22,840 nucleotides of DNA from a virus. Position 1 is the first letter of the stretch, and each line of letters begins with the position of its first letter. A model generated the notes under the pieces. That model did no database searches. It saw only the letters and a list, made by a program, of their open reading frames with translations, and was not told where the DNA came from. This document shows, piece after piece, positions 9,779-22,669 of the stretch. The position numbers were made by a program, and so were the translations under genes. The stretch is from positions 1 through 22,840 of the IMG/VR virus record IMGVR_UViG_3300028025_001494. One strand, given 5' to 3'.

Positions 9779-9851
9779 TGGGCTGTAACTCAGTTGGTAG
9801 AGTGGCGAACTGTTAATTCGCAAGTCGTAGGATCGAGGCCTACCAGCCCAG
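9779..9851 (+). tRNA. tRNA-Asn (GTT)
   Basis: A complete cloverleaf: acceptor TGGGCTG with CAGCCCA, D stem ACTC/GAGT, anticodon stem GCGAA/TTCGC with loop CTGTTAA (anticodon GTT at 9812-9814), T stem GTAGG/CCTAC and discriminator G. The T loop reads ATCGAGG, with A in place of the usual first T. The 3' CCA is not encoded. Confidence 0.92.
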
Positions 9852-10029
9852 CAGTGTAGTGACTAACACTCGGTTATATCAATCGTGAATAAGATATGTA
9901 GGAACTGTCACGAAAAGACAGACGGTACTAACCTTACCGCAGGGACAAGGGTGCCCATGGTTGCTACTACTCGTAGGATATCTAGCGTAGAGTCAGTAGG
10001 GAAATGCTTGTCACATTTTGCCTACACAT

Positions 10030-10101
10030 GTCTCCATCGTCTAATGGTTAGGACTCCAGATTTTCAATCTGGCAACAGGGGTTCAACTCCCCTTGGAGAT
10101 A
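10030..10101 (+). tRNA. tRNA-Glu (TTC)
   Basis: Acceptor GTCTCCA pairs with TGGAGAT, with a G-U pair at the end. The D arm starts TCGTCTAATGG, typical for Glu. The anticodon stem CCAGA/TCTGG holds loop TTTTCAA with anticodon TTC. The T arm has a normal TTCAACT loop. No CCA is encoded. The 178 bases between this gene and tRNA-Asn hold several short inverted repeats but no tRNA that I can fold. Confidence 0.92.
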
Positions 10102-10191
10102 CGATACTAAGGTTGCGTTGCAGGTATAGAGACTGACTCCCGACGGGGACAACTGGAGGACAACGGGCTTATGTAAATCCTCATGTATTAA

Positions 10192-10227
10192 GATTAGTAA
10201 GTTAGTCTGCTCGTAGACTTACTAATC
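10192..10227 (+). repeat. Perfect inverted repeat between tRNA genes
   Basis: GATTAGTAA (10192-10200) pairs perfectly with TTACTAATC (10219-10227). A further GTCT/AGAC pairing inside closes a GCTCGT loop, with a short bulge on one side. It ends four bases before tRNA-Gly and has no T run, so it is not a standard terminator. It could be a processing signal in a polycistronic tRNA precursor. Confidence 0.6.
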
Positions 10228-10231
10228 ACTT

Positions 10232-10302
10232 GCGGGTGTTGCATAATGGTAGTGCCTCTGCCTTCCAAGCAGATAGTGCCAGTTCAATTCTGGTCACCCG
10301 CT
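10232..10302 (+). tRNA. tRNA-Gly (TCC)
   Basis: Acceptor GCGGGTG pairs with CACCCGC. The anticodon stem TCTGC/GCAGA holds loop CTTCCAA, anticodon TCC. The T loop is TTCAATT and the discriminator T. A CCA follows directly at 10303-10305; the other complete tRNA genes in the window lack it, so its presence may be chance. Confidence 0.93.
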
Positions 10303-10306
10303 CCAA

Positions 10307-10393
10307 GGAAGATTGGCTGAGTGGCTTAAAGCAGTCGGTTGCTAACTGACCGTAGAATAAAATCTACCATAGGTTCAAATCCTATATCTTCCG
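10307..10393 (+). tRNA. tRNA-Ser (GCT)
   Basis: Acceptor GGAAGAT pairs with ATCTTCC. The anticodon stem GTCGG/CTGAC (one G-U) holds loop TTGCTAA, anticodon GCT. A long variable arm (GTAGA/TCTAC) identifies a serine-type tRNA. The T loop is TTCAAAT and the discriminator G. It begins one base after the CCA of tRNA-Gly, so the two are probably cut from one transcript. Confidence 0.94.
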
Positions 10394-10397
10394 CATA

Positions 10398-10406
10398 TGC
10401 TATAAT
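10398..10406 (+). promoter_or_regulatory. Extended -10 promoter for hsp20
   Basis: TGCTATAAT begins five bases after tRNA-Ser, so any -35 would lie inside that gene. The predicted start point is near 10412-10413, exactly at the first leader hairpin. The same nine-base box occurs at 11280, 13538 and on the minus strand at 22704. Confidence 0.75.
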
Positions 10407-10411
10407 AGTAT

Positions 10412-10461
10412 TGTACTGCCTACGGGGGTACATTAACTTATTCGCTTGAAAGGGGAATAAA
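10412..10461 (+). promoter_or_regulatory. Two-hairpin hsp20 leader, candidate ROSE-like RNA thermometer
   Basis: Hairpin 1: TGTACT (10412-10417) pairs with GGTACA (10427-10432), and CC/GG pairs close a TAC loop around a G-G mismatch. Hairpin 2: TTATTC (10438-10443) pairs perfectly with GAATAA (10455-10460). Above it lie a G44-G54 mismatch and CTT/AGG pairs around a GAA loop. Hairpin 2 buries most of the Shine-Dalgarno GAAAGGGG (10448-10455). The anti-SD arm contains TCGCT (10442-10446), which matches the UYGCU element of ROSE thermometers, where a G-G pair opposite the SD is known. The base pairing is visible in the sequence; the temperature response is inferred. Confidence 0.65.
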
Positions 10462-10878
10462 ATGGTAAATAATTTCGCTATGGATCTATTCAATGATCCT
10501 TTTTTTATTGGCTTTAACAGAGAACTTGGTCGTCTCAATACCGCACATAAGGTAAACTCACAATCATATCCTCCATACGATCTTCTTAAACTAGATGAAG
10601 ATACATATCGCCTGTCAATTGCAATTGCAGGTTTTACAAAAGATGATATTGATGTGTCAGTAGATAATGGAACCCTCATTATTAAGGGAGAAATTATTGA
10701 AGTAACAGATGCTGAAGTTGTTCACAAGGGAATTGCTGGTCGTAAGTTCACACGATCATTTGCTCTTGGAGAGTATATGGAAGTAACTGGGGCTGAACTT
10801 AAGGATGGCATGCTACATATCAATGTAGACCGTATTGTTCCTGAAGAGAAGAAGCCAAAGACAATTAAAATCAAGTAG
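10462..10878 (+). CDS. hsp20: Small heat shock protein (Hsp20/IbpA-like)
   Basis: A 138-residue alpha-crystallin-type chaperone closest in pattern to IbpA. The N-terminal arm contains DPFFIGFNRELGRL and SQSYPPYDLLKL. The crystallin core shows YRLSIAIAGFTKDDIDV, then LIIKGEI, then GIAGRKFTRSFALGEYMEV and ELKDGMLHINVDRIVPEE. The tail has KPKTIKIK, with the I-x-I motif that docks between subunits. It would hold unfolding proteins in soluble oligomers without ATP. Hsp20 genes are known in cyanophages and other T4-like phages, so phage carriage has precedent. The gene is controlled by an extended -10 promoter and a structured leader that hides its ribosome binding site. Confidence 0.93.
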   Translation: MVNNFAMDLFNDPFFIGFNRELGRLNTAHKVNSQSYPPYDLLKLDEDTYRLSIAIAGFTKDDIDVSVDNGTLIIKGEIIEVTDAEVVHKGIAGRKFTRSFALGEYMEVTGAELKDGMLHINVDRIVPEEKKPKTIKIK

Positions 10879-10888
10879 TACAATATAG

Positions 10889-10978
10889 GTAGTCCCTACA
10901 CAGGACCTTAGAGATGGTTTAGTTACCCATTTGTTTGACCGTGGCCATCGTGCCTGGAACACCTGTGTAGGGCTCTAC
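10889..10978 (+). ncRNA. Candidate structured RNA bounded by an 11-bp perfect inverted repeat
   Basis: CCCTACACAGG (10894-10904) and CCTGTGTAGGG (10962-10972) are perfect inverted repeats. GTAG/CTAC pairs extend the stem outward past a small internal loop. The enclosed 57 bases can form an inner helix, GATGG (10913-10917) with CCATC (10945-10949), among other pairings. It begins just after hsp20 and ends 12 bases before the -10 of the HNH gene. There is no T run, so it is a poor intrinsic terminator. It matches no RNA family I recognise. It could be an RNA element, a DNA site for a dimeric protein, or a homing-related site. Confidence 0.45.
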
Positions 10979-10989
10979 TATTTTAGGTG

Positions 10990-10995
10990 TATAAT
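10990..10995 (+). promoter_or_regulatory. -10 box of the HNH gene (leaderless or nearly so)
   Basis: A perfect TATAAT ends eight bases before ATG 11004, so the predicted transcript has only about 0-3 leader bases. There is no Shine-Dalgarno sequence in TAAGATCT between them. No convincing -35 is seen. Confidence 0.55.
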
Positions 10996-11003
10996 TAAGA
11001 TCT

Positions 11004-11279
11004 ATGTCAGAGAAAGAATTAGCAGTTTTCAATAAACAGCAATTCAAAAACCGTCTGAGAGAAATCAAAGAGGCGAGTGGCTGTACTGACTGCGGAGAAT
11101 CTAATCATATTGTTTTAGATTTTGATCACATAAGAGATAAAAAATATAATGTTTCAAGAATGATTCACGATGGATTTTCTTGGGCAGCAATCAAAAAAGA
11201 AATATCAAAATGTGAAGTAGTATGTGCAAACTGTCATAGGATTAGAACTCATAATAGGTTGACAAAGAAAACAGCCTAG
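11004..11279 (+). CDS. Free-standing HNH endonuclease
   Basis: A 91-residue protein with a zinc-supported HNH fold. CTDC (C27, C30) and CANC (C74, C77) supply a likely zinc site. DFDH (D41-H42) and CHRIRTHNR (H78, H83) supply the beta-beta-alpha metal-site residues. A helix with SWAAIKKEI lies between. HNH enzymes of this size are often homing endonucleases that nick or cut phage DNA and spread their own gene; some assist packaging. It stands alone between hsp20 and the endolysin, next to the long inverted repeat. The likely promoter is almost at the start codon. Confidence 0.87.
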   Translation: MSEKELAVFNKQQFKNRLREIKEASGCTDCGESNHIVLDFDHIRDKKYNVSRMIHDGFSWAAIKKEISKCEVVCANCHRIRTHNRLTKKTA

Positions 11280-11288
11280 TGCTATAAT
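11259..11288 (+). promoter_or_regulatory. Strong promoter for the endolysin
   Basis: TTGACA (11259-11264), an 18-base spacer and TATAAT (11283-11288) preceded by TGC: a full consensus with an extended -10. The -35 lies inside the end of the HNH gene. The predicted leader is about 20 bases and includes AGGAGG. A strong independent promoter fits late lysis expression. Confidence 0.85.
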
Positions 11289-11315
11289 TAAAGAACTAAC
11301 TTTAGGAGGTTATAT

Positions 11316-12104
11316 ATGGCTGTCAAAGGCTCAGTAGAAGCAATTATTGAAGTTGCAAAGAAAGAAATTGGAACAATTGAAGGTCCAAAGGATAACGAAA
11401 CAAAGTACGGTAAGTGGTCTGGTGTAAACTTCCAGCCATGGTGCCAGTCATTCGTATCATGGACAGCATTCACATCAGGACTAGATGCAAAGAAATACCC
11501 AAAGACTGCTTCAACAGTAGCAGCAGCAGATTGGTTTAAGAAGAATAATCGTTGGGCAGATGCTCGTAATGATGATCCAACTCCAGGAGACTGGATCTAT
11601 TTTGATTTCCCAGATGATGGTGTAAATCGTATTTCACATGTTGGTCTATGCATTAAGAATAATGGTGATGGAACAATCCAGGTTATTGAAGGAAACACTT
11701 CAGGGACTGCAAAGGGAGACCAACGCAATGGCGGAATGTGTGTAGAGAAGACTCGTGCTTATGTAAAGAATAAGAAGGGTATCCTCAATGCAGTAGTTGG
11801 TTGGGGTCGTCCAGTTTATGCTGGAGAAGAGAACGCTCCACTACTATCTAAGGCTGGAGTTGCTACAGAACCTGTAAAGACTGCTACAAAGCCTAAGAAG
11901 GCTGCTGTTACAGGGTTTAAGCCACTTAAGAATGGTTCAAAGGGTACTGGTGTAAAGACAGTGCAAACTCTTCTTGGCATTAAAGCAGATGGCTCATTCG
12001 GTCCAGGTACTGCAAAGGCTGTTCAAGACTTCCAAAAGAAGGCTGGACTACCTACAACAGGTGTAGTTGATCAAGCAACGCTAAAGGCATTGAAGGCTAA
12101 GTAA
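11316..12104 (+). CDS. Endolysin: CHAP amidase/peptidase plus peptidoglycan-binding domain
   Basis: A 262-residue two-domain lytic enzyme. The N-terminal CHAP domain (about residues 5-165) has the catalytic cysteine C43 in PWCQSF and histidine H108 in ISHVG, with GDWIYFDF between. A Lys/Ala-rich linker (about 170-195) leads to a type 1 peptidoglycan-binding domain (about 197-262: LKNGSKGTGVKTVQTLLG, then DGSFGPGTAKAVQDFQKKAGL). It would cut peptide crosslinks or amide bonds of host peptidoglycan during lysis. No signal peptide is seen, so it needs a holin for release. It has a perfect AGGAGG site and its own strong promoter. The stop overlaps the next gene (TAATG). Confidence 0.93.
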   Translation: MAVKGSVEAIIEVAKKEIGTIEGPKDNETKYGKWSGVNFQPWCQSFVSWTAFTSGLDAKKYPKTASTVAAADWFKKNNRWADARNDDPTPGDWIYFDFPDDGVNRISHVGLCIKNNGDGTIQVIEGNTSGTAKGDQRNGGMCVEKTRAYVKNKKGILNAVVGWGRPVYAGEENAPLLSKAGVATEPVKTATKPKKAAVTGFKPLKNGSKGTGVKTVQTLLGIKADGSFGPGTAKAVQDFQKKAGLPTTGVVDQATLKALKAK

Positions 12105-16879: not shown

Positions 16880-17566
16880 ATGTCAACAACAGCCCTAATT
16901 ATGTGTACTTATATAAGGTTTGAGAACCTTAAGACTACTTTAGACTGCATAAAAAATCAAACTAATAAAGACTTTGACTTTTATATTGTAGACAATTCTA
17001 ATAATAGCGAGAAGTTGTCAAAGTATTTAAATAAATTTGGACAAGGCATAGGTATCTCAGTTCACAGTTATAATAATGAGTTTAAACAATTTAGTAGGTT
17101 TCTACTTGCAAGAGATTTAGCAGAGCAAGGCTATGAAAATGTTATTTTTATTGATGACGACGAAATACTTCCACATACATTCATACAAGAGTGTCATGAT
17201 CAATATGATCAGACATGTTTAAAATCTTTTTGGGCTCACAGAATAAATGCAAGATATAAAAGAAAGATTAAGATTGAGCGTGATGAGTATGGTAATTATG
17301 CTGGTACTGGTGGCTTAGTATGTGACATAAAACTATTTCTTAATGAAGACTTCTTTGACTGCCCTGAAGAATATTGGATTATTGATGATCTATGGCTATC
17401 CTATTATGTATTGAAGTTTACAGACTATAAGATTAAAGAACTCAAAACAGATATTAAGTTTATTAAAGATAGGAAGGCAACATTCCTTACGCTTGGAGAT
17501 TTAAAACAAAGGTTCTCCGAAGAGTTTATCCTTCCAGAATCTGAAGGTATTGATCCCTTAGAATAG
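16880..17566 (+). CDS. Family 2-like glycosyltransferase
   Basis: A 228-residue GT-A fold protein. The start STTALIMCTYIRFENLKTTLDCI matches the first strand and helix of family 2 enzymes. FYIVDNSNNS and the metal-binding IDDDE (D92-D94) follow, with FDCPEEYWIIDDLWLSYYV in the acceptor region. It would transfer a sugar from a nucleotide donor in the cytoplasm. It is the only plus-strand gene of the glycosylation region and runs into the minus-strand operon; the last 41 bases of the two coding sequences overlap tail to tail. ATG 16880 was chosen over 16862 because the latter sits on the -10 box. Confidence 0.87.
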   Translation: MSTTALIMCTYIRFENLKTTLDCIKNQTNKDFDFYIVDNSNNSEKLSKYLNKFGQGIGISVHSYNNEFKQFSRFLLARDLAEQGYENVIFIDDDEILPHTFIQECHDQYDQTCLKSFWAHRINARYKRKIKIERDEYGNYAGTGGLVCDIKLFLNEDFFDCPEEYWIIDDLWLSYYVLKFTDYKIKELKTDIKFIKDRKATFLTLGDLKQRFSEEFILPESEGIDPLE

Positions 17567-18557
17567 ATGGGTCAAAGTTTTCAAACCCAATAGTTGCAGC
17601 CTTTTCTTTTTGTAACTGCTTATCGCTATTAACATATCTATCAATCTTTTTACCAAGTTCTCTAACATCTGCTTCATATACATCAAGTTTAATTCTTGTC
17701 ATAAGTGTGCTAACCTTACTAGATGATACAAGCCAGTCCTTTGGAAGTATCTGGTTATTTGGAGATATGTCTGTCATAAAAACAGGAAGACCACTTACCA
17801 ATGCCTCATTCATTGGCAAGCAAAGTCCAGCGTATCTTCTTGGAAGAATCATTGCATCAAAGCCATCATACATTGCAGAACGACTTTCAACATTTCCTAT
17901 CTCAACTGTAAGCCTAGAGTCTTTATAGTTAATGTTTAGTTCGCTCTGGCTTCTAATAACTAATTCATAATCAGCCTTGGAGTGACGAAGCATATCAATG
18001 ACAGTTTGAGTACCGTTTCTATCCTGTGAGGCAGCCTTGCCACCAATATGAAGCAGCCTATTATGGTCTTTAGATAGGTTATTCTCTCTTACAGACTTAA
18101 ACTCATCAGTGTCAACAGGCGGCGGTATATGAACAACAGTGGTCTCATTACCAAATCTAGCAATGATATCATCTACCTTCCAATAACTTGGAGATATCAT
18201 ATAGGTAGGCAAAGGCATATCTGGCTTATTTAGATGATCAAGGAACTCATAGTTGTACTGCATTAAGGTTTTAACCTTACGTCTTTGAGCCAGGTGAATG
18301 AAGTGTGGATGATAAAAGGTTTCGCAAGTAAGAACAGAGTTTAGACCATCCATAAACATAGACACTTCTTGCTTTGTAGGAAAGCCATTGGTCATTGTGA
18401 CATTATATCCGTCATACCATTCTGGATGCTGCTCATTATTATTAAACTTTGCAGAGTTAATAAGAAGGATTCTGTCAGGATTAAGCATTCTAACTAAATC
18501 TCTTGTTTGATTACCAAGCCCTGTGTTGTCACATCTTGCAATCATTCCAAATGTCAT
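17526..18557 (-). CDS. GT-B glycosyltransferase (family 4-like)
   Basis: A 343-residue protein with two Rossmann-like halves. The N-terminal part has MIARCDNTGLGNQTRDLVRML, resembling acceptor-side sequences. The C-terminal part has LLHIGGKAASQDRNGTQTVIDML and a donor-site region ending FDAMILPRRYAGLCLPMNEALVSGLPVFMTD, with the E-x7-E-like acidic residue and GLP turn of family 4 enzymes. It is the last gene of the minus-strand operon, coupled to the upstream gene by an ATGA overlap. It would act on a sugar nucleotide in the cytoplasm. Donor and acceptor are unknown. Confidence 0.85.
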   Translation of the reverse strand: MTFGMIARCDNTGLGNQTRDLVRMLNPDRILLINSAKFNNNEQHPEWYDGYNVTMTNGFPTKQEVSMFMDGLNSVLTCETFYHPHFIHLAQRRKVKTLMQYNYEFLDHLNKPDMPLPTYMISPSYWKVDDIIARFGNETTVVHIPPPVDTDEFKSVRENNLSKDHNRLLHIGGKAASQDRNGTQTVIDMLRHSKADYELVIRSQSELNINYKDSRLTVEIGNVESRSAMYDGFDAMILPRRYAGLCLPMNEALVSGLPVFMTDISPNNQILPKDWLVSSSKVSTLMTRIKLDVYEADVRELGKKIDRYVNSDKQLQKEKAATIGFENFDPSILRDQYLQILEG

Positions 18558-19285
18558 TCAGTATATCCCCAAACATCGTCATCTTGTGTAAACTTTCTTG
18601 TACCTGCACGACCATCTAAGTGATATGAGCGCTTGATACTGCCTTCTGGATGGTAGATCCAAAGTTTATGCTTATCCCATCCGTCATCTTGAACTACTCC
18701 ATGAAACTTATCTTCAATGAATGTTCTTTCATCGCAAGCAGGAAGCACTACTTCTCTATAATACTTACTTAAACTAAGATGCGGTCTTTGGCTCCACTGA
18801 ATAGTTTTCATAAATCCATCTTCAAGCCCAAGCATAAGATGATCATGTTCAACAGGAATTGATACTTCAAAGTGAAAACGAATAGTATTTGCTTTTTCAT
18901 ACTCAAGCATGTCTAAACATTTCTGCCAATCAATTTCCATATCAGAAGTTATTGGTGCATCTCCTTCTACATAAAGTATTGCTGCGGTTTGAACAAGTCC
19001 AATAGTTTCTCTCATCATGTTTGTTTGATGGCTGTGCTCATCAAATATAATTGGCAAAACATTTTTCCATTCATGAAGACATTTCCACAGAACCTTGCTC
19101 TTAAACTGATCGTAATCTTCTTTGCGTTCCAGCCTTTCTTCCCTTAGCCCATCAATTTGTAAAATGATCTCATTATTTGGAAAATGGCTACGAATAGAAA
19201 GGATTGTCTCATCAAGTATAGTTGTATCTGGATGACTTGGCAAGATTGATGTTACAACAACTATAGTTATATTATCTTTGTTCAT
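18554..19285 (-). CDS. GT-A-like glycosyltransferase
   Basis: A 243-residue protein. The start NITIVVVTSILPSHPDTTILDETILSI and the strand EIILQIDGL resemble family 2 enzymes. The central VEGDAPITSDMEIDW has an acidic pair where the DxD metal motif lies, here E-G-D. The C-terminal part contains HFEVSIPVEHDHLMLG and WGYTE. From memory, phages with surface-sugar clusters often carry such genes. It overlaps the neighbours by 14 bases (start) and 4 bases (stop), so it belongs to the operon. Specificity cannot be read. Confidence 0.75.
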   Translation of the reverse strand: MNKDNITIVVVTSILPSHPDTTILDETILSIRSHFPNNEIILQIDGLREERLERKEDYDQFKSKVLWKCLHEWKNVLPIIFDEHSHQTNMMRETIGLVQTAAILYVEGDAPITSDMEIDWQKCLDMLEYEKANTIRFHFEVSIPVEHDHLMLGLEDGFMKTIQWSQRPHLSLSKYYREVVLPACDERTFIEDKFHGVVQDDGWDKHKLWIYHPEGSIKRSYHLDGRAGTRKFTQDDDVWGYTE

Positions 19286-20132
19286 GTAAGTCCTTCATAA
19301 TCTCAATAGAAAAATCTCTTTTATATTTAATCCACCAACTAACAATCTTATGCATATTGTTAGGGTACTCTAATAGAATTCCTGGCAAAACTGAATTTAA
19401 CTCACCCCAGTTATTCATTTTCTTAATTGGTAAATCATCTGGGTATACAAATGTAAAATAGTCTTGTTCTACACCCTTGGAATCAATAAGATCTCCAATA
19501 GGCATTGCTAACATTTCTATTGATTCAAAGAACCTAAAGGTATCAATTACCTGTGCTCCAGCGGGGCAAGGAGCCACCTTAGTCTTTGATAGTGTCTCGT
19601 AGTAGTCCTTTGGCTTTTGGCCCTGTGCAAAGCCTGCTGTGGGCTTGTAATGGGCATTTGGTAGAGACTCCATAGCCTGACCTAACTCTTTTCTACGGTC
19701 ATGAGTAATCTGCCCACCAAAATAAACATCATATTCTTTAGTAGGATAATTAGGCAAATTATCTTTTAAATGTTGTGGAACTCCAACAAAAAACTTATTA
19801 TATTTTTTGTGTTTTTGATGAGGGTATTGAACCCATATAGAAATATTTGGATGATCTATCTTATCTATATTAAACTTAGCAGACTCATCACCTGTAATAA
19901 ACAATACAACCCTACTAGAGTTTTGAAGTTGCTTAGAGATGTAAGCCTCTTTGCCAGCATTGCCTTGTCCAGGTATCACCACAAAACATCTTTCCTCATT
20001 TGGAATTGAGTCAACTGTTAGTTGCTCTACTCCATTTCTTTCAAAGGTTGATCTTAATAGTTCATAGTCCCACTTACCGTCTGCAGAGTCAAGAGGATTT
20101 ACTGAATATAGATATGCTTTAGGCTTGTTCAT
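19272..20132 (-). CDS. Exostosin-like glycosyltransferase
   Basis: About 286 residues. The C-terminal block KVAPCPAGAQVIDTFRFFESIEMLAMPIGD matches the donor-binding segment of exostosin/GT47-type and related GT-B enzymes (aPCG..D..RF.E....G.iPv). The first part has PNEERCFVVIPGQGNAGKEAYISK and WVQYPHQKHKKYNKFFVGVP. I chose ATG 20132 (MNKPKAYLY) because GAGG lies upstream of it. ATG 20150 is in frame (six more residues) but has no ribosome binding site. Its start overlaps the end of the methyltransferase gene. Substrate unknown. Confidence 0.75.
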   Translation of the reverse strand: MNKPKAYLYSVNPLDSADGKWDYELLRSTFERNGVEQLTVDSIPNEERCFVVIPGQGNAGKEAYISKQLQNSSRVVLFITGDESAKFNIDKIDHPNISIWVQYPHQKHKKYNKFFVGVPQHLKDNLPNYPTKEYDVYFGGQITHDRRKELGQAMESLPNAHYKPTAGFAQGQKPKDYYETLSKTKVAPCPAGAQVIDTFRFFESIEMLAMPIGDLIDSKGVEQDYFTFVYPDDLPIKKMNNWGELNSVLPGILLEYPNNMHKIVSWWIKYKRDFSIEIMKDLHEQR

Positions 20133-20832
20133 AGTAAAGATGAACCTCATGCTGATAGTCTAGAATTGTTTCTGTATATCCAATTTCTTTAATCCATTGT
20201 CTTAAGTTATATAGTGATTCATCCCATTGTTGCAGCATAAATTCTGGATGACCAGATAACCAAATCTTAGGTTTGTATTCTCTTAGCACCTTCTCAGCAC
20301 CACCAAGCACACGCCACTCACTACCTTCTACATCTAAAGAGATAGCCGTAGGAGCCTGAATCCCATGATCATATACACAAGAATCTATAGTAATCTGTCC
20401 ATATGTATCTCCTTCAAGGTATAGTTCTTTAAATCCATGGGCTGCTTCAATTACATTATTAACTTCTGGTGGCCATTCGTTGTAATAAATTCTTGCAAGA
20501 TCATTTATCTTATCAGATGCAAAGCCAGGGATACATACCATAGGAAGTTCTAGATTATTTGCAGTCCAAGTTGCAGGAAAGTGTGACCAAACTTTAGGAT
20601 TTGGTTCAAACAAAACTACTTCTGCACCCCACATTTGACACAGTGCTGGGAACTCTCCCTCTTCTGCACCAACATAATATACGGTGTCACCTTTGCCAAT
20701 ACGTTCTGACATATGTTTTAGTCTTGGCTTTTCCCAACCGCTTGGAAGATACCATTCTGCTCTATCTGCACGATGCTTTGGTAGCACTATTTCAAACTCT
20801 CCATTTAATACTGCTCTAACCATTTCTGTCAT
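20119..20832 (-). CDS. FkbM-family methyltransferase
   Basis: About 237 residues. The S-adenosylmethionine fold is marked by GDTVYYVGAEEGEFPALCQMWGAEVVLFEPNP (glycine loop and acidic strand end). A later ISLDVEGSEWRVLGGAEKVL motif is diagnostic of the FkbM family, followed by KIWLSGHPE. FkbM enzymes methylate hydroxyls of sugars or polyketides. Beside glycosyltransferases and an epimerase, O-methylation of a sugar is likely. ATG 20832 gives an ATGA overlap with the epimerase stop. An upstream ATG at 20844 is also possible (four more residues). Confidence 0.87.
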   Translation of the reverse strand: MTEMVRAVLNGEFEIVLPKHRADRAEWYLPSGWEKPRLKHMSERIGKGDTVYYVGAEEGEFPALCQMWGAEVVLFEPNPKVWSHFPATWTANNLELPMVCIPGFASDKINDLARIYYNEWPPEVNNVIEAAHGFKELYLEGDTYGQITIDSCVYDHGIQAPTAISLDVEGSEWRVLGGAEKVLREYKPKIWLSGHPEFMLQQWDESLYNLRQWIKEIGYTETILDYQHEVHLYYEQA

Positions 20833-21713
20833 TTTTGAATCCATTCCATTAGAGATACCTTTGGCATCCAGCCAGTTAAATCTTTAAACTTTTGATTTGA
20901 AGCAAGTGTTTCTTGCACTTCTCCAACTCTTGGCGGGATAAACTTAATATCATTTGAAATGCTATTAGCAAGATCTAAGATAGAATAGTTACTACCAAAT
21001 CCAATGTTATATACTTCTCCAAAACCAGAAGTTAATTCAGAGGCAATTATATTTGCATCAATAACATCTGATATGTGGGTAAAGTCTCTTCTTTGTGAGC
21101 CATCTCCAACTACTGTTAAAGGCTTTCCTTCTCCGTGCTGCTTCATAAATAGACCAATTACTGGTGCGTACTGACCTTTAAGTGGCTGCCTGTTACCATA
21201 TACATTAAAGTATCTAAGAGATACAGTCTCCAAACCATATAGGTTGTAATAAACTCTTGCCAAGTTTTCTCCAAAAACCTTTGCTGTTGAGTATGGTGTT
21301 AGTGGATCAGATGGCTGTGTTTCTATATTGGGTATAGATGACTTCTTTCCATAGGCAGAGGAAGTGCTTGAGTATATAAATCTTTTTACATTATTTACCC
21401 TAGAAAGTTCAAGAATATTTGCAGTACCTACTGCATTTGATTCAATAGACTTTCTTGGATTGAGGATTGCTGGCTGAATTCTGGCATCTGATGCAACATG
21501 AAACACATTATCAACACCTACAAAAAGATCCTTAATGTCTTCATAGTTGCAGATATCATACTTATAATTTTGAGCCTTATCATTCCAGTAAAATGTTTCA
21601 TGACATTCAGCAGATTCGTTATCTATACAGATAACTTCATGACCTAAACTAATTAGTCTATCTACTAGGTTTGAACCAATAAATCCTGCTCCACCTGTAA
21701 CCAAAGATTTCAT
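20829..21713 (-). CDS. NAD-dependent nucleotide-sugar epimerase/dehydratase
   Basis: A 294-residue extended short-chain dehydrogenase. TGGAGFIGS (residues 6-14) binds NAD. DN at 31-32 follows the second strand, SSTSSAYG contributes the catalytic serine or threonine, and PYSTAK supplies Tyr141 and Lys145. RYFNVYGNRQ and the RRDFTHISDV motif are typical of UDP-sugar 4-epimerases (GalE/WbpP-like). It would make an activated sugar for the neighbouring transferases. It is coupled to the CgeB-like gene by TAATG. Epimerase versus dehydratase specificity cannot be settled without alignment; the YSTAK context favours epimerase. Confidence 0.9.
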   Translation of the reverse strand: MKSLVTGGAGFIGSNLVDRLISLGHEVICIDNESAECHETFYWNDKAQNYKYDICNYEDIKDLFVGVDNVFHVASDARIQPAILNPRKSIESNAVGTANILELSRVNNVKRFIYSSTSSAYGKKSSIPNIETQPSDPLTPYSTAKVFGENLARVYYNLYGLETVSLRYFNVYGNRQPLKGQYAPVIGLFMKQHGEGKPLTVVGDGSQRRDFTHISDVIDANIIASELTSGFGEVYNIGFGSNYSILDLANSISNDIKFIPPRVGEVQETLASNQKFKDLTGWMPKVSLMEWIQK

Positions 21714-22669
21714 TAGATGCCTAACTCTTTAAGTATTTCTTTCCATCTATGAACATATGTGTGATCTTTTTTAGTTCTTTCATGGCCATTTAATCTAATG
21801 CGTTCTCTATCAAGGCTATCGTCAAGATACTTGTCTACCTTAGATTTTAGATCTTCTAGGTTGCCATGCTCATAGAAAACAATTTCATTGCCATCTTCAA
21901 AGTAATCTTCAAGCCCAACAATGCGAGGGTAGATAGTGAATCCACCACGACCAGTAGACTCAAATAACCTATCGCTAGTATAGTAAGGATACTTAAAGTC
22001 AATGTTTAGACTATCTCCAACTGCAACCTTGCTCTGTGCATAAATCTTATTTAGTTCATCACCACGTACTGTACCAGTATCTCCATCTCCACCTACATGA
22101 AGGAACCTATCTCCATATGTTTTTCTTAAAAAGTCTATTAGTTCTGAGCGATACTTGTGCTCATGGTGATACCTCTTGCTTCCAACAAAGATAACATCAT
22201 ACTTAAAGTCATATGGGTTATAGGCTTCATGGATGTAGCATTCTTTGTCATAGACACCAGCAGGAATAAAGTGACCCTTTACGCTGGTGTTCTCATTAAA
22301 CCAGTCTGCCATAAGTTTATCTACAGTAAAGAAATGTCCAATTGTCTTATAGAAGTTATCTTCTTTAAGATCTTTTTGACGGTCAAGACCAAACCAAAGA
22401 TCAAGGTGATAGGTGATTGTTGGAACGCCTGCCTGCTTTAGTTGAAGCAAAACATTGTCCATCGTAATACGACCAGTTGTTTCCCAGCCGTGAGTGTGTA
22501 CCCAGATAAACAGATCTGAGTCTAAGGCCTGGTCAAGGATGACATGACTCTTTGCCTTTCTTTCCTGCAATTTTACAACGGTATGTCCAAGAGATTCAAG
22601 ACTCTTAACATGGTGATTCTCACTACTATAAGAAACCTCAAAGTTTCCTAGAAAAACAATTTTAGCCAA
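21713..22669 (-). CDS. CgeB-like glycosyltransferase
   Basis: A 318-residue GT-B protein of the CgeB type. The start AKIVFLGNFEVSYSSENHHVKSLESLGH is followed by FIWVHTHGWETT, TYHLDLWFGL and HFIPAGVY. A donor-side half has VIFVGSKRYHHEHKYRSELIDFL and YYTSDRLFESTGRGGFTIYPRIVGLEDYFEDGNEIVFYE, with the E-S-x-G-x-G block characteristic of this group. It is the first gene of the minus-strand operon. Translation starts at TTG 22669, after AAAGGGG, and an extended -10 promoter lies just upstream. Sugar specificity is unknown. Confidence 0.88.
   Translation of the reverse strand: MAKIVFLGNFEVSYSSENHHVKSLESLGHTVVKLQERKAKSHVILDQALDSDLFIWVHTHGWETTGRITMDNVLLQLKQAGVPTITYHLDLWFGLDRQKDLKEDNFYKTIGHFFTVDKLMADWFNENTSVKGHFIPAGVYDKECYIHEAYNPYDFKYDVIFVGSKRYHHEHKYRSELIDFLRKTYGDRFLHVGGDGDTGTVRGDELNKIYAQSKVAVGDSLNIDFKYPYYTSDRLFESTGRGGFTIYPRIVGLEDYFEDGNEIVFYEHGNLEDLKSKVDKYLDDSLDRERIRLNGHERTKKDHTYVHRWKEILKELGI

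Follow-up and report, generated by a model that had tools for sequence, protein, structure and literature searches.

A two-hairpin, ROSE-like leader of phage hsp20 genes and its probable role as a translational switch

The DNA analysed in this study (the window) is the virus record IMGVR_UViG_3300028025_001494 of IMG/VR, positions 1 to 22,840 (22,840 nucleotides). On its plus strand, an hsp20 gene at 10462-10878 encodes an IbpA-like small heat shock protein of 138 amino acids (Pfam HSP20, 9.6e-18), for which the best NCBIfam model is IbpA at 103 bits, under that model's cut-off of 212. A tRNA array (Asn, Glu, Gly, Ser) lies directly upstream at 9779-10394, and tRNA-like 3' ends were also found just before the hsp20 promoter in several related contigs. 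Along its entire length, the terminase shares 54% identity with that of large Streptomyces phages, and the annotated relatives of the endolysin are mainly Streptomyces phage lysins; judged by these relatives the phage appears to resemble actinophages, which fits the term used in the initial annotation of this DNA. In one whole-collection scan of bacterial genomes, the window Hsp20 found only nine distant relatives, none of them actinobacterial.

Adjoining the 3' side of the tRNA-Ser gene, a predicted extended -10 promoter element, TGCTATAAT, occupies 10398-10406 on the plus strand (TG at 10398-10399, TATAAT at 10401-10406), with a transcription start predicted near 10412-10413. The initial annotation had predicted this start from the extended -10 box, and a -10 element of the TGnTATAAT type precedes nearly all distinct window-type leaders. 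Additionally, the spacing between the end of the -10 box and the bulged G of the first hairpin (described below) is 10-12 nt in 116 of 122 distinct leaders, so that the mRNA would begin with this hairpin. Elsewhere in the window, at 11259-11340, a perfect TTGACA-18-TGnTATAAT promoter stands before the CHAP endolysin gene, whose leader, TTAAAGAACTAACTTTAGGAGG, has a small hairpin at its start, adjoining the Shine-Dalgarno (SD) sequence.

The hsp20 leader (10412-10461) consists of two hairpins, hairpin 1 (10412-10432) and hairpin 2 (10438-10460), separated by the A/U-rich linker TTAAC (10433-10437), which reads AUUAA(C/U/A) in most leaders. Folded as a single sequence, the leader reaches -15.4 kcal/mol (z = -1.9, with 9 of 200 shuffles equally good), which is only moderately better than chance; because of this low z-score, conservation was used to decide whether the structure is real. 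A protein search with Hsp20 in viral contigs yielded more than 590 relatives, of which 80 with 83-92% identity were kept. Both hairpins are kept in 78 of 78 related leaders, a few of them incomplete at contig ends, so that the SD-blocking stem is retained in these homologous leaders. The earlier description of two adjacent hairpins in a leader of about 50 nt is exact to the base. A fortuitous fold, conserved by recent common descent, would agree with the z-score of -1.9, but the chances of this explanation are negligible: the element is common to proteins as low as 33-42% identical, and it is refuted by compensatory changes that greatly outnumber those in shuffled and slid controls (below).

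Hairpin 2 (TTATTC-G-CTT / GAA / AGG-G-GAATAA) is ROSE-like in form and hides the SD GAAAGGGG (10448-10455), which ends six bases 5' of the ATG at 10462. TTATTC (10438-10443) pairs with GAATAA (10455-10460) and C10445-T10447 with A10451-G10453 around a GAA loop, while G10444 faces G10454 in the predicted fold, both guanines being kept in nearly all window-type leaders. The anti-SD strand carries the U(U/C)GCU motif (TCGCT, 10442-10446), conserved opposite the SD in phage hsp20 clusters, and within 10441-10457 UUCGCUU pairs against AGGGGAA. The sequence and the fold bear out the initial annotation to the base on the two paired segments, the G-G mismatch, the hidden SD and the UCGCU element.

An exact pattern search for hairpin 2 returned at least 120 stretches, and at least 201 copies of the 23-nt hairpin, either exact or as a two-base variant (GGAGG), were found in the viral contigs fetched. 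According to BLASTP, 198 of these lead into hsp20; the remaining three are incomplete at contig ends and begin like hsp20. The proteins behind the copies diverge to about 33% identity while the 23 bases stay. Among the copies found, variation was limited to one two-base variant (AAAGGGG to AAGGAGG) and one single-base change, so that the SD occurs only as AAAGGGG or AAGGAGG, the two bases changing together; on inspection, each form can still make seven pairs with the usual anti-SD of bacteria, the intermediates being weaker. In one group of leaders (L246), the basal C-G pair is replaced by U-A. Hairpin 2 is nearly invariant with its loop included, which is more than a simple thermometer needs and counts against the reading preferred below.

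The near-invariant palindromic arms downstream of a promoter are also what a DNA operator would show, in which the inverted repeat TTATTC-N11-GAATAA would bind a repressor in a manner comparable to CIRCE and HrcA. This explanation is highly improbable, as the copies occur only at hsp20 starts with fixed strand and spacing, many relatives lose the arms and keep UYGCU and the SD, the loop and the SD inside the repeat are constrained, and hairpin 1 covaries as RNA. The CIRCE/HrcA operator itself (TTAGCACTC-N9-GAGTGCTAA) was ruled out because its repeat is different, and also on the grounds of strand, spacing and covariation.

Hairpin 1, with which the transcript is predicted to begin, is composed of UGUAC-U, the bulged G10418, CC(UACG)GG and a closing strand that runs to A10432. 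RNAfold draws a symmetric internal loop here; comparison with relatives gives a single bulge instead, in the form GUAC-U-[G10418 bulged]-CC-(UACG)-GG-G-GUAC with a UNCG tetraloop. A total of 124 distinct leaders parse into a lower stem, one bulged base, an upper stem of 2-3 pairs and a 4-base loop, and the bulged base is G in 123 of them; a bulged G stands at the same position in the Rfam ROSE_3 consensus and in the E. coli ibpA and ibpB leaders. Covariation was assessed on 99 leaders aligned to a covariance model from a small clean alignment, because MAFFT had misaligned hairpin 1 when applied to mixed leaders. Since such an alignment is fitted to the structure, a control with slid partners matters and was used along with shuffled controls. 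Overall, 96.4% of cells pair, changes on both sides occur at nine pairs, and the number of double-change cells is 163, compared with 38.5 +/- 6.3 in shuffled and at most 28 in slid controls; hairpin 1 covaries strongly. The compensatory changes that the initial annotation had proposed to look for in the 10438-10460 stem are thus strong in hairpin 1, but that stem itself is nearly invariant.

More distant leaders were obtained by searching with divergent members and with named phages, and were found before hsp20 genes of cyanophages, pelagiphages and phages of Methylophilales, Agrobacterium and Sinorhizobium. Most of them are without the exact hairpin 2 and keep CU(U/C)GCUU, followed after 3-9 bases by AAGGAG just before the start; the same bulged-G hairpin lies upstream, with UUCG, GAAA or GUAA loops in the cyanophages. 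U(U/C)GCU opposite the SD persists in homologous phage leaders to about 30-45% protein identity. For a quantitative comparison, 56 phage hsp20 clusters (75% protein identity) were set against 89 SD-led genes of other kinds from these loci and against 2800 shuffles. UYGCU opposite the SD is present in 48 of the 56 clusters (2/89 other genes, 1/2800 shuffles), the bulged-G hairpin under a strict definition in 44 (1/89 and 89/2800, respectively), and both together in 39 clusters, with none among the other genes or the shuffles. When the bulged base is left free, it is G in the best hairpin of 57 of 62 hsp20 clusters, and three non-IbpA outgroups are among those without one. One Vibrio phage leader (L339) has neither UYGCU opposite the SD nor the bulged-G hairpin. 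A model of ten cyanophage leaders finds the window leader as the best match in the 22.8 kb (16.1 bits, with a rough E of 0.009), and this cyanophage-only model also matches many other phage leaders. In these comparisons, a ROSE-type leader accompanies phage hsp20 genes almost universally, across very different hosts.

The cyanophage hsp20 leaders (L355-L434) present the same leader behind different promoters, TATAAATA, TATAATTA and TAATATATA. In 57 of 59 cases the promoter stands 8-9 nt upstream of the bulged G, a fixed distance, and the predicted RNA start thus stays the same although the type of promoter varies. Additionally, two chromosomal SAR86 ibpA genes (L346 and L347) have a leader with UCGCU opposite the SD and a bulged-G hairpin upstream, and score below the Rfam ROSE_3 cut-off; it seems that Rfam misses many ROSE-like elements.

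ROSE thermometers control small heat shock genes of proteobacteria, set a UYGCU element against the SD and contain a G-G pair there. They also have at least one stable hairpin 5' of the thermosensing one, a place taken in the window by the covarying hairpin 1. At gathering cut-offs, Rfam recognizes only tRNAs in the window, and a cmscan of 10300-10600 with all 4227 Rfam families at E <= 10 returned no ROSE or thermoregulator family. The scan with the Rfam ROSE models suggested in the initial annotation thus came back empty, ROSE_3 (RF02523, gathering cut-off 43 bits) having no match to the window at E <= 10. The same model reaches 20-34 bits, below threshold, at several phage hsp20 leaders, the Methylophilales phage leader scoring 34.1 bits. 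RF02523 matches Pseudomonas ibpA DNA at 69.2 bits in an UNVERIFIED record named 'Pseudomonas phage Y7'; this match probably reflects Pseudomonas host DNA, and the sequence was used solely as a stand-in for P. aeruginosa ibpA. A preQ1-II match (16.4 bits, gathering score 47) was rejected because it had no ligand-pocket support and covered mainly the promoter, SD and AUG.

In its plan, the window leader is like ROSE_3 of Pseudomonas ibpA: two hairpins in a leader of about 50-60 nt before an IbpA-type gene, a hairpin I that combines a single bulged G with an upper stem of 2-3 bp and a loop of 4 nt, and U(U/C)GCU (UCGCU in the ROSE_3 consensus) against the SD in hairpin II. It differs from ROSE_3 in the 6-bp UUAUUC/GAAUAA base and GAA loop of hairpin 2, in its extended -10 promoter, the promoters of Pseudomonas ibpA having been deduced to be of the sigma-32 type, and in its carrier, a phage resembling actinophages, and the window scores nothing against the model. 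Given a ROSE_3-like plan with a failed family score, the leader was filed as a divergent ROSE-like variant and not as a member of RF02523. The ROSE-like character proposed at the outset is supported by UYGCU opposite the SD in relatives, the ROSE_3-type bulged-G hairpin 1, the IbpA-like protein and the match to the cyanophage model. The remark in the initial annotation that no ROSE element was known from an actinophage also agrees with the outcome of literature searches in open-access publications, which turned up no description of a ROSE element before a phage hsp20 gene.

FourU thermometers likewise cover the SD of a heat shock gene with a hairpin, but the strand opposite the SD is UUCGCUU in the window leader, with no UUUU. 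A hairpin over the SD is also found at hsp17 of Synechocystis (PMC4477652), with one hairpin compared with the two described here. The known phage RNA thermometers, namely lambda cIII, the SP-beta blyA fourU element and the sigma-70 thermometer of a gut phage (PMC11182007), are similar to the hsp20 leader in being phage-borne structures over a ribosome-binding site, but they involve other motifs and genes, none of them ROSE-like or linked to a small heat shock protein.

The two-hairpin ROSE leaders of Pseudomonas are proven thermometers, in which hairpin II melts and suffices alone; the role of the 5' hairpins was left open, with hairpin I proposed as a stabilizer of the ibpA mRNA (PMC3669281). 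At 37 C, the computed stability of hairpin II is -5.2 kcal/mol for the window, near the values of -4.7 for P. aeruginosa and -4.6 for E. coli. The in-silico melting proposed in the initial annotation was run with ViennaRNA and gave no opening near 37-45 C, nor at any temperature below about 70 C, for the window leader or its hairpin II alone; the model leaves the ROSE hairpins of E. coli and P. aeruginosa, the proven P. aeruginosa element included, equally unmelted, so this result neither supports nor refutes thermosensing.

The encoded protein provides a further link to IbpA. In E. coli, IbpA binds its own 5' UTR and represses its own translation, an activity that cannot do without R93 and also requires an aromatic residue at position 34 (PMC10474464). 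The window protein keeps the equivalents of both residues, Tyr36 (10567-10569) and Arg94 (10741-10743) aligning with Y34 and R93 of E. coli IbpA. Among the phage cluster representatives, the R93 equivalent is Arg in 55 of 57 and all 57 have Tyr or Phe at position 34, whereas position 93 of E. coli IbpB is Gln. Across 30 gammaproteobacterial Hsp20 genes, R93, Y34 and UYGCU before the SD are present in nine of nine IbpA-type genes, compared with R93 in 0/21 and UYGCU in 1/21 of the others. Therefore, the IbpA-type protein and the ROSE-type leader go together in bacteria as well as in phages. Of the nine IbpA-type leaders, only some show a clear bulged-G hairpin, which is thus not obligatory for IbpA genes. 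Both E. coli leaders resemble the phage leader in having TCGCT opposite the SD and an upstream bulged-G hairpin, GGACGC[G]CC(TGAT)GGGTGTTC in ibpA and ATGCTC[G]CC(GTCA)GGGAGCAT in ibpB, but they are longer and have more hairpins; in addition, this comparison draws on self-repression demonstrated for gammaproteobacterial IbpA only.

The reading preferred here, and considered probable, is that the leader is a divergent ROSE-like, cis-acting translational switch of phage hsp20 that heat would open and that Hsp20 itself would probably close. Under this model, transcription would start at the foot of hairpin 1, so that a stable hairpin caps the 5' end of the mRNA, and hairpin 2 would pair the SD with the UUCGCUU strand through a helix containing G-G and G-U pairs. 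With hairpin 2 closed, little Hsp20 would be made; heat would loosen the imperfect hairpin and allow the ribosome to bind. On the analogy of IbpA in E. coli, phage Hsp20 in its free form would probably bind its own leader, most likely at the bulged-G hairpin, and keep translation off until misfolded protein draws it away and releases the mRNA. On this analogy, self-repression by Hsp20 would be an equally live mechanism beside thermosensing.

A purely protein-operated operator, in which the leader is bound, mainly at the bulged-G hairpin, by Hsp20 or some other protein of the phage that represses translation while temperature has no direct part, would account for the invariance of the bulged G amid a covarying stem, for the near-invariance of hairpin 2 including its loop, for its high computed melting, and for the conservation of R93 and Y34 in the phage Hsp20s, given that IbpA represses its own mRNA (PMC10474464). 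It is nevertheless judged unlikely, because proven thermometers are recognized by their UYGCU opposite the SD and because temperature is sensed by hairpin II alone in Pseudomonas (PMC3669281). A considerably less probable explanation is that hairpin 1 serves as a 5' stabilizer of the mRNA and that hairpin 2 only tunes a fixed, unregulated translation from a strong ribosome-binding site. The position of hairpin 1 at the predicted start, which window-type phages share with cyanophages that use promoters of other types, is consistent with stabilization, as is the function proposed for hairpin I in Pseudomonas (PMC3669281), but the UYGCU motif, the bulged G and the restriction to hsp20 genes would be left unexplained.

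Extending the preferred reading of a heat- and Hsp20-responsive switch, the bulged-G hairpin could be a sequence- and shape-specific docking site for IbpA-type small heat shock proteins, the leader and the protein together forming a single self-regulating module common to gammaproteobacteria and to phages that infect actinobacteria, cyanobacteria, SAR11, methylotrophs and rhizobia. This extension is put forward tentatively, the balance of probability being against it; if true, it would account for the unexplained 5' hairpins of ROSE elements and would make the phage switch a combined sensor of heat and protein aggregation. ROSE elements have been described from proteobacteria, whereas the ROSE-type leader accompanies hsp20 in phages of very different hosts, some of them resembling actinophages. 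Phage RNA thermometers are few, with blyA counted as only the second (PMC11182007), and on the present comparisons viruses appear to use a ROSE-type RNA switch widely, which points to phages adjusting a chaperone to heat or to damaged protein in the course of infection. Natural variants, available in the hundreds, show a hairpin 1 that covaries around an invariant bulged G, a pattern that bacterial alignments had not revealed, and they make the function of the ROSE 5' hairpin and the recognition of mRNA by IbpA directly testable.

Two other features of the window were observed. Between hsp20 and the next open reading frame, at 10876-10995, CCCTACACAGG and CCTGTGTAGGG form an 11-bp stem around about 60 nt; the region folds at -38.8 kcal/mol (z -2.2), has no Rfam match, is not a simple terminator and is possibly a small structured RNA. 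On the minus strand, a block of sugar genes at 17526-22669 includes glycosyltransferase matches and a match to NAD-dependent epimerase / GDP-mannose dehydratase, and perhaps serves glycosylation of the host surface or of the virion.
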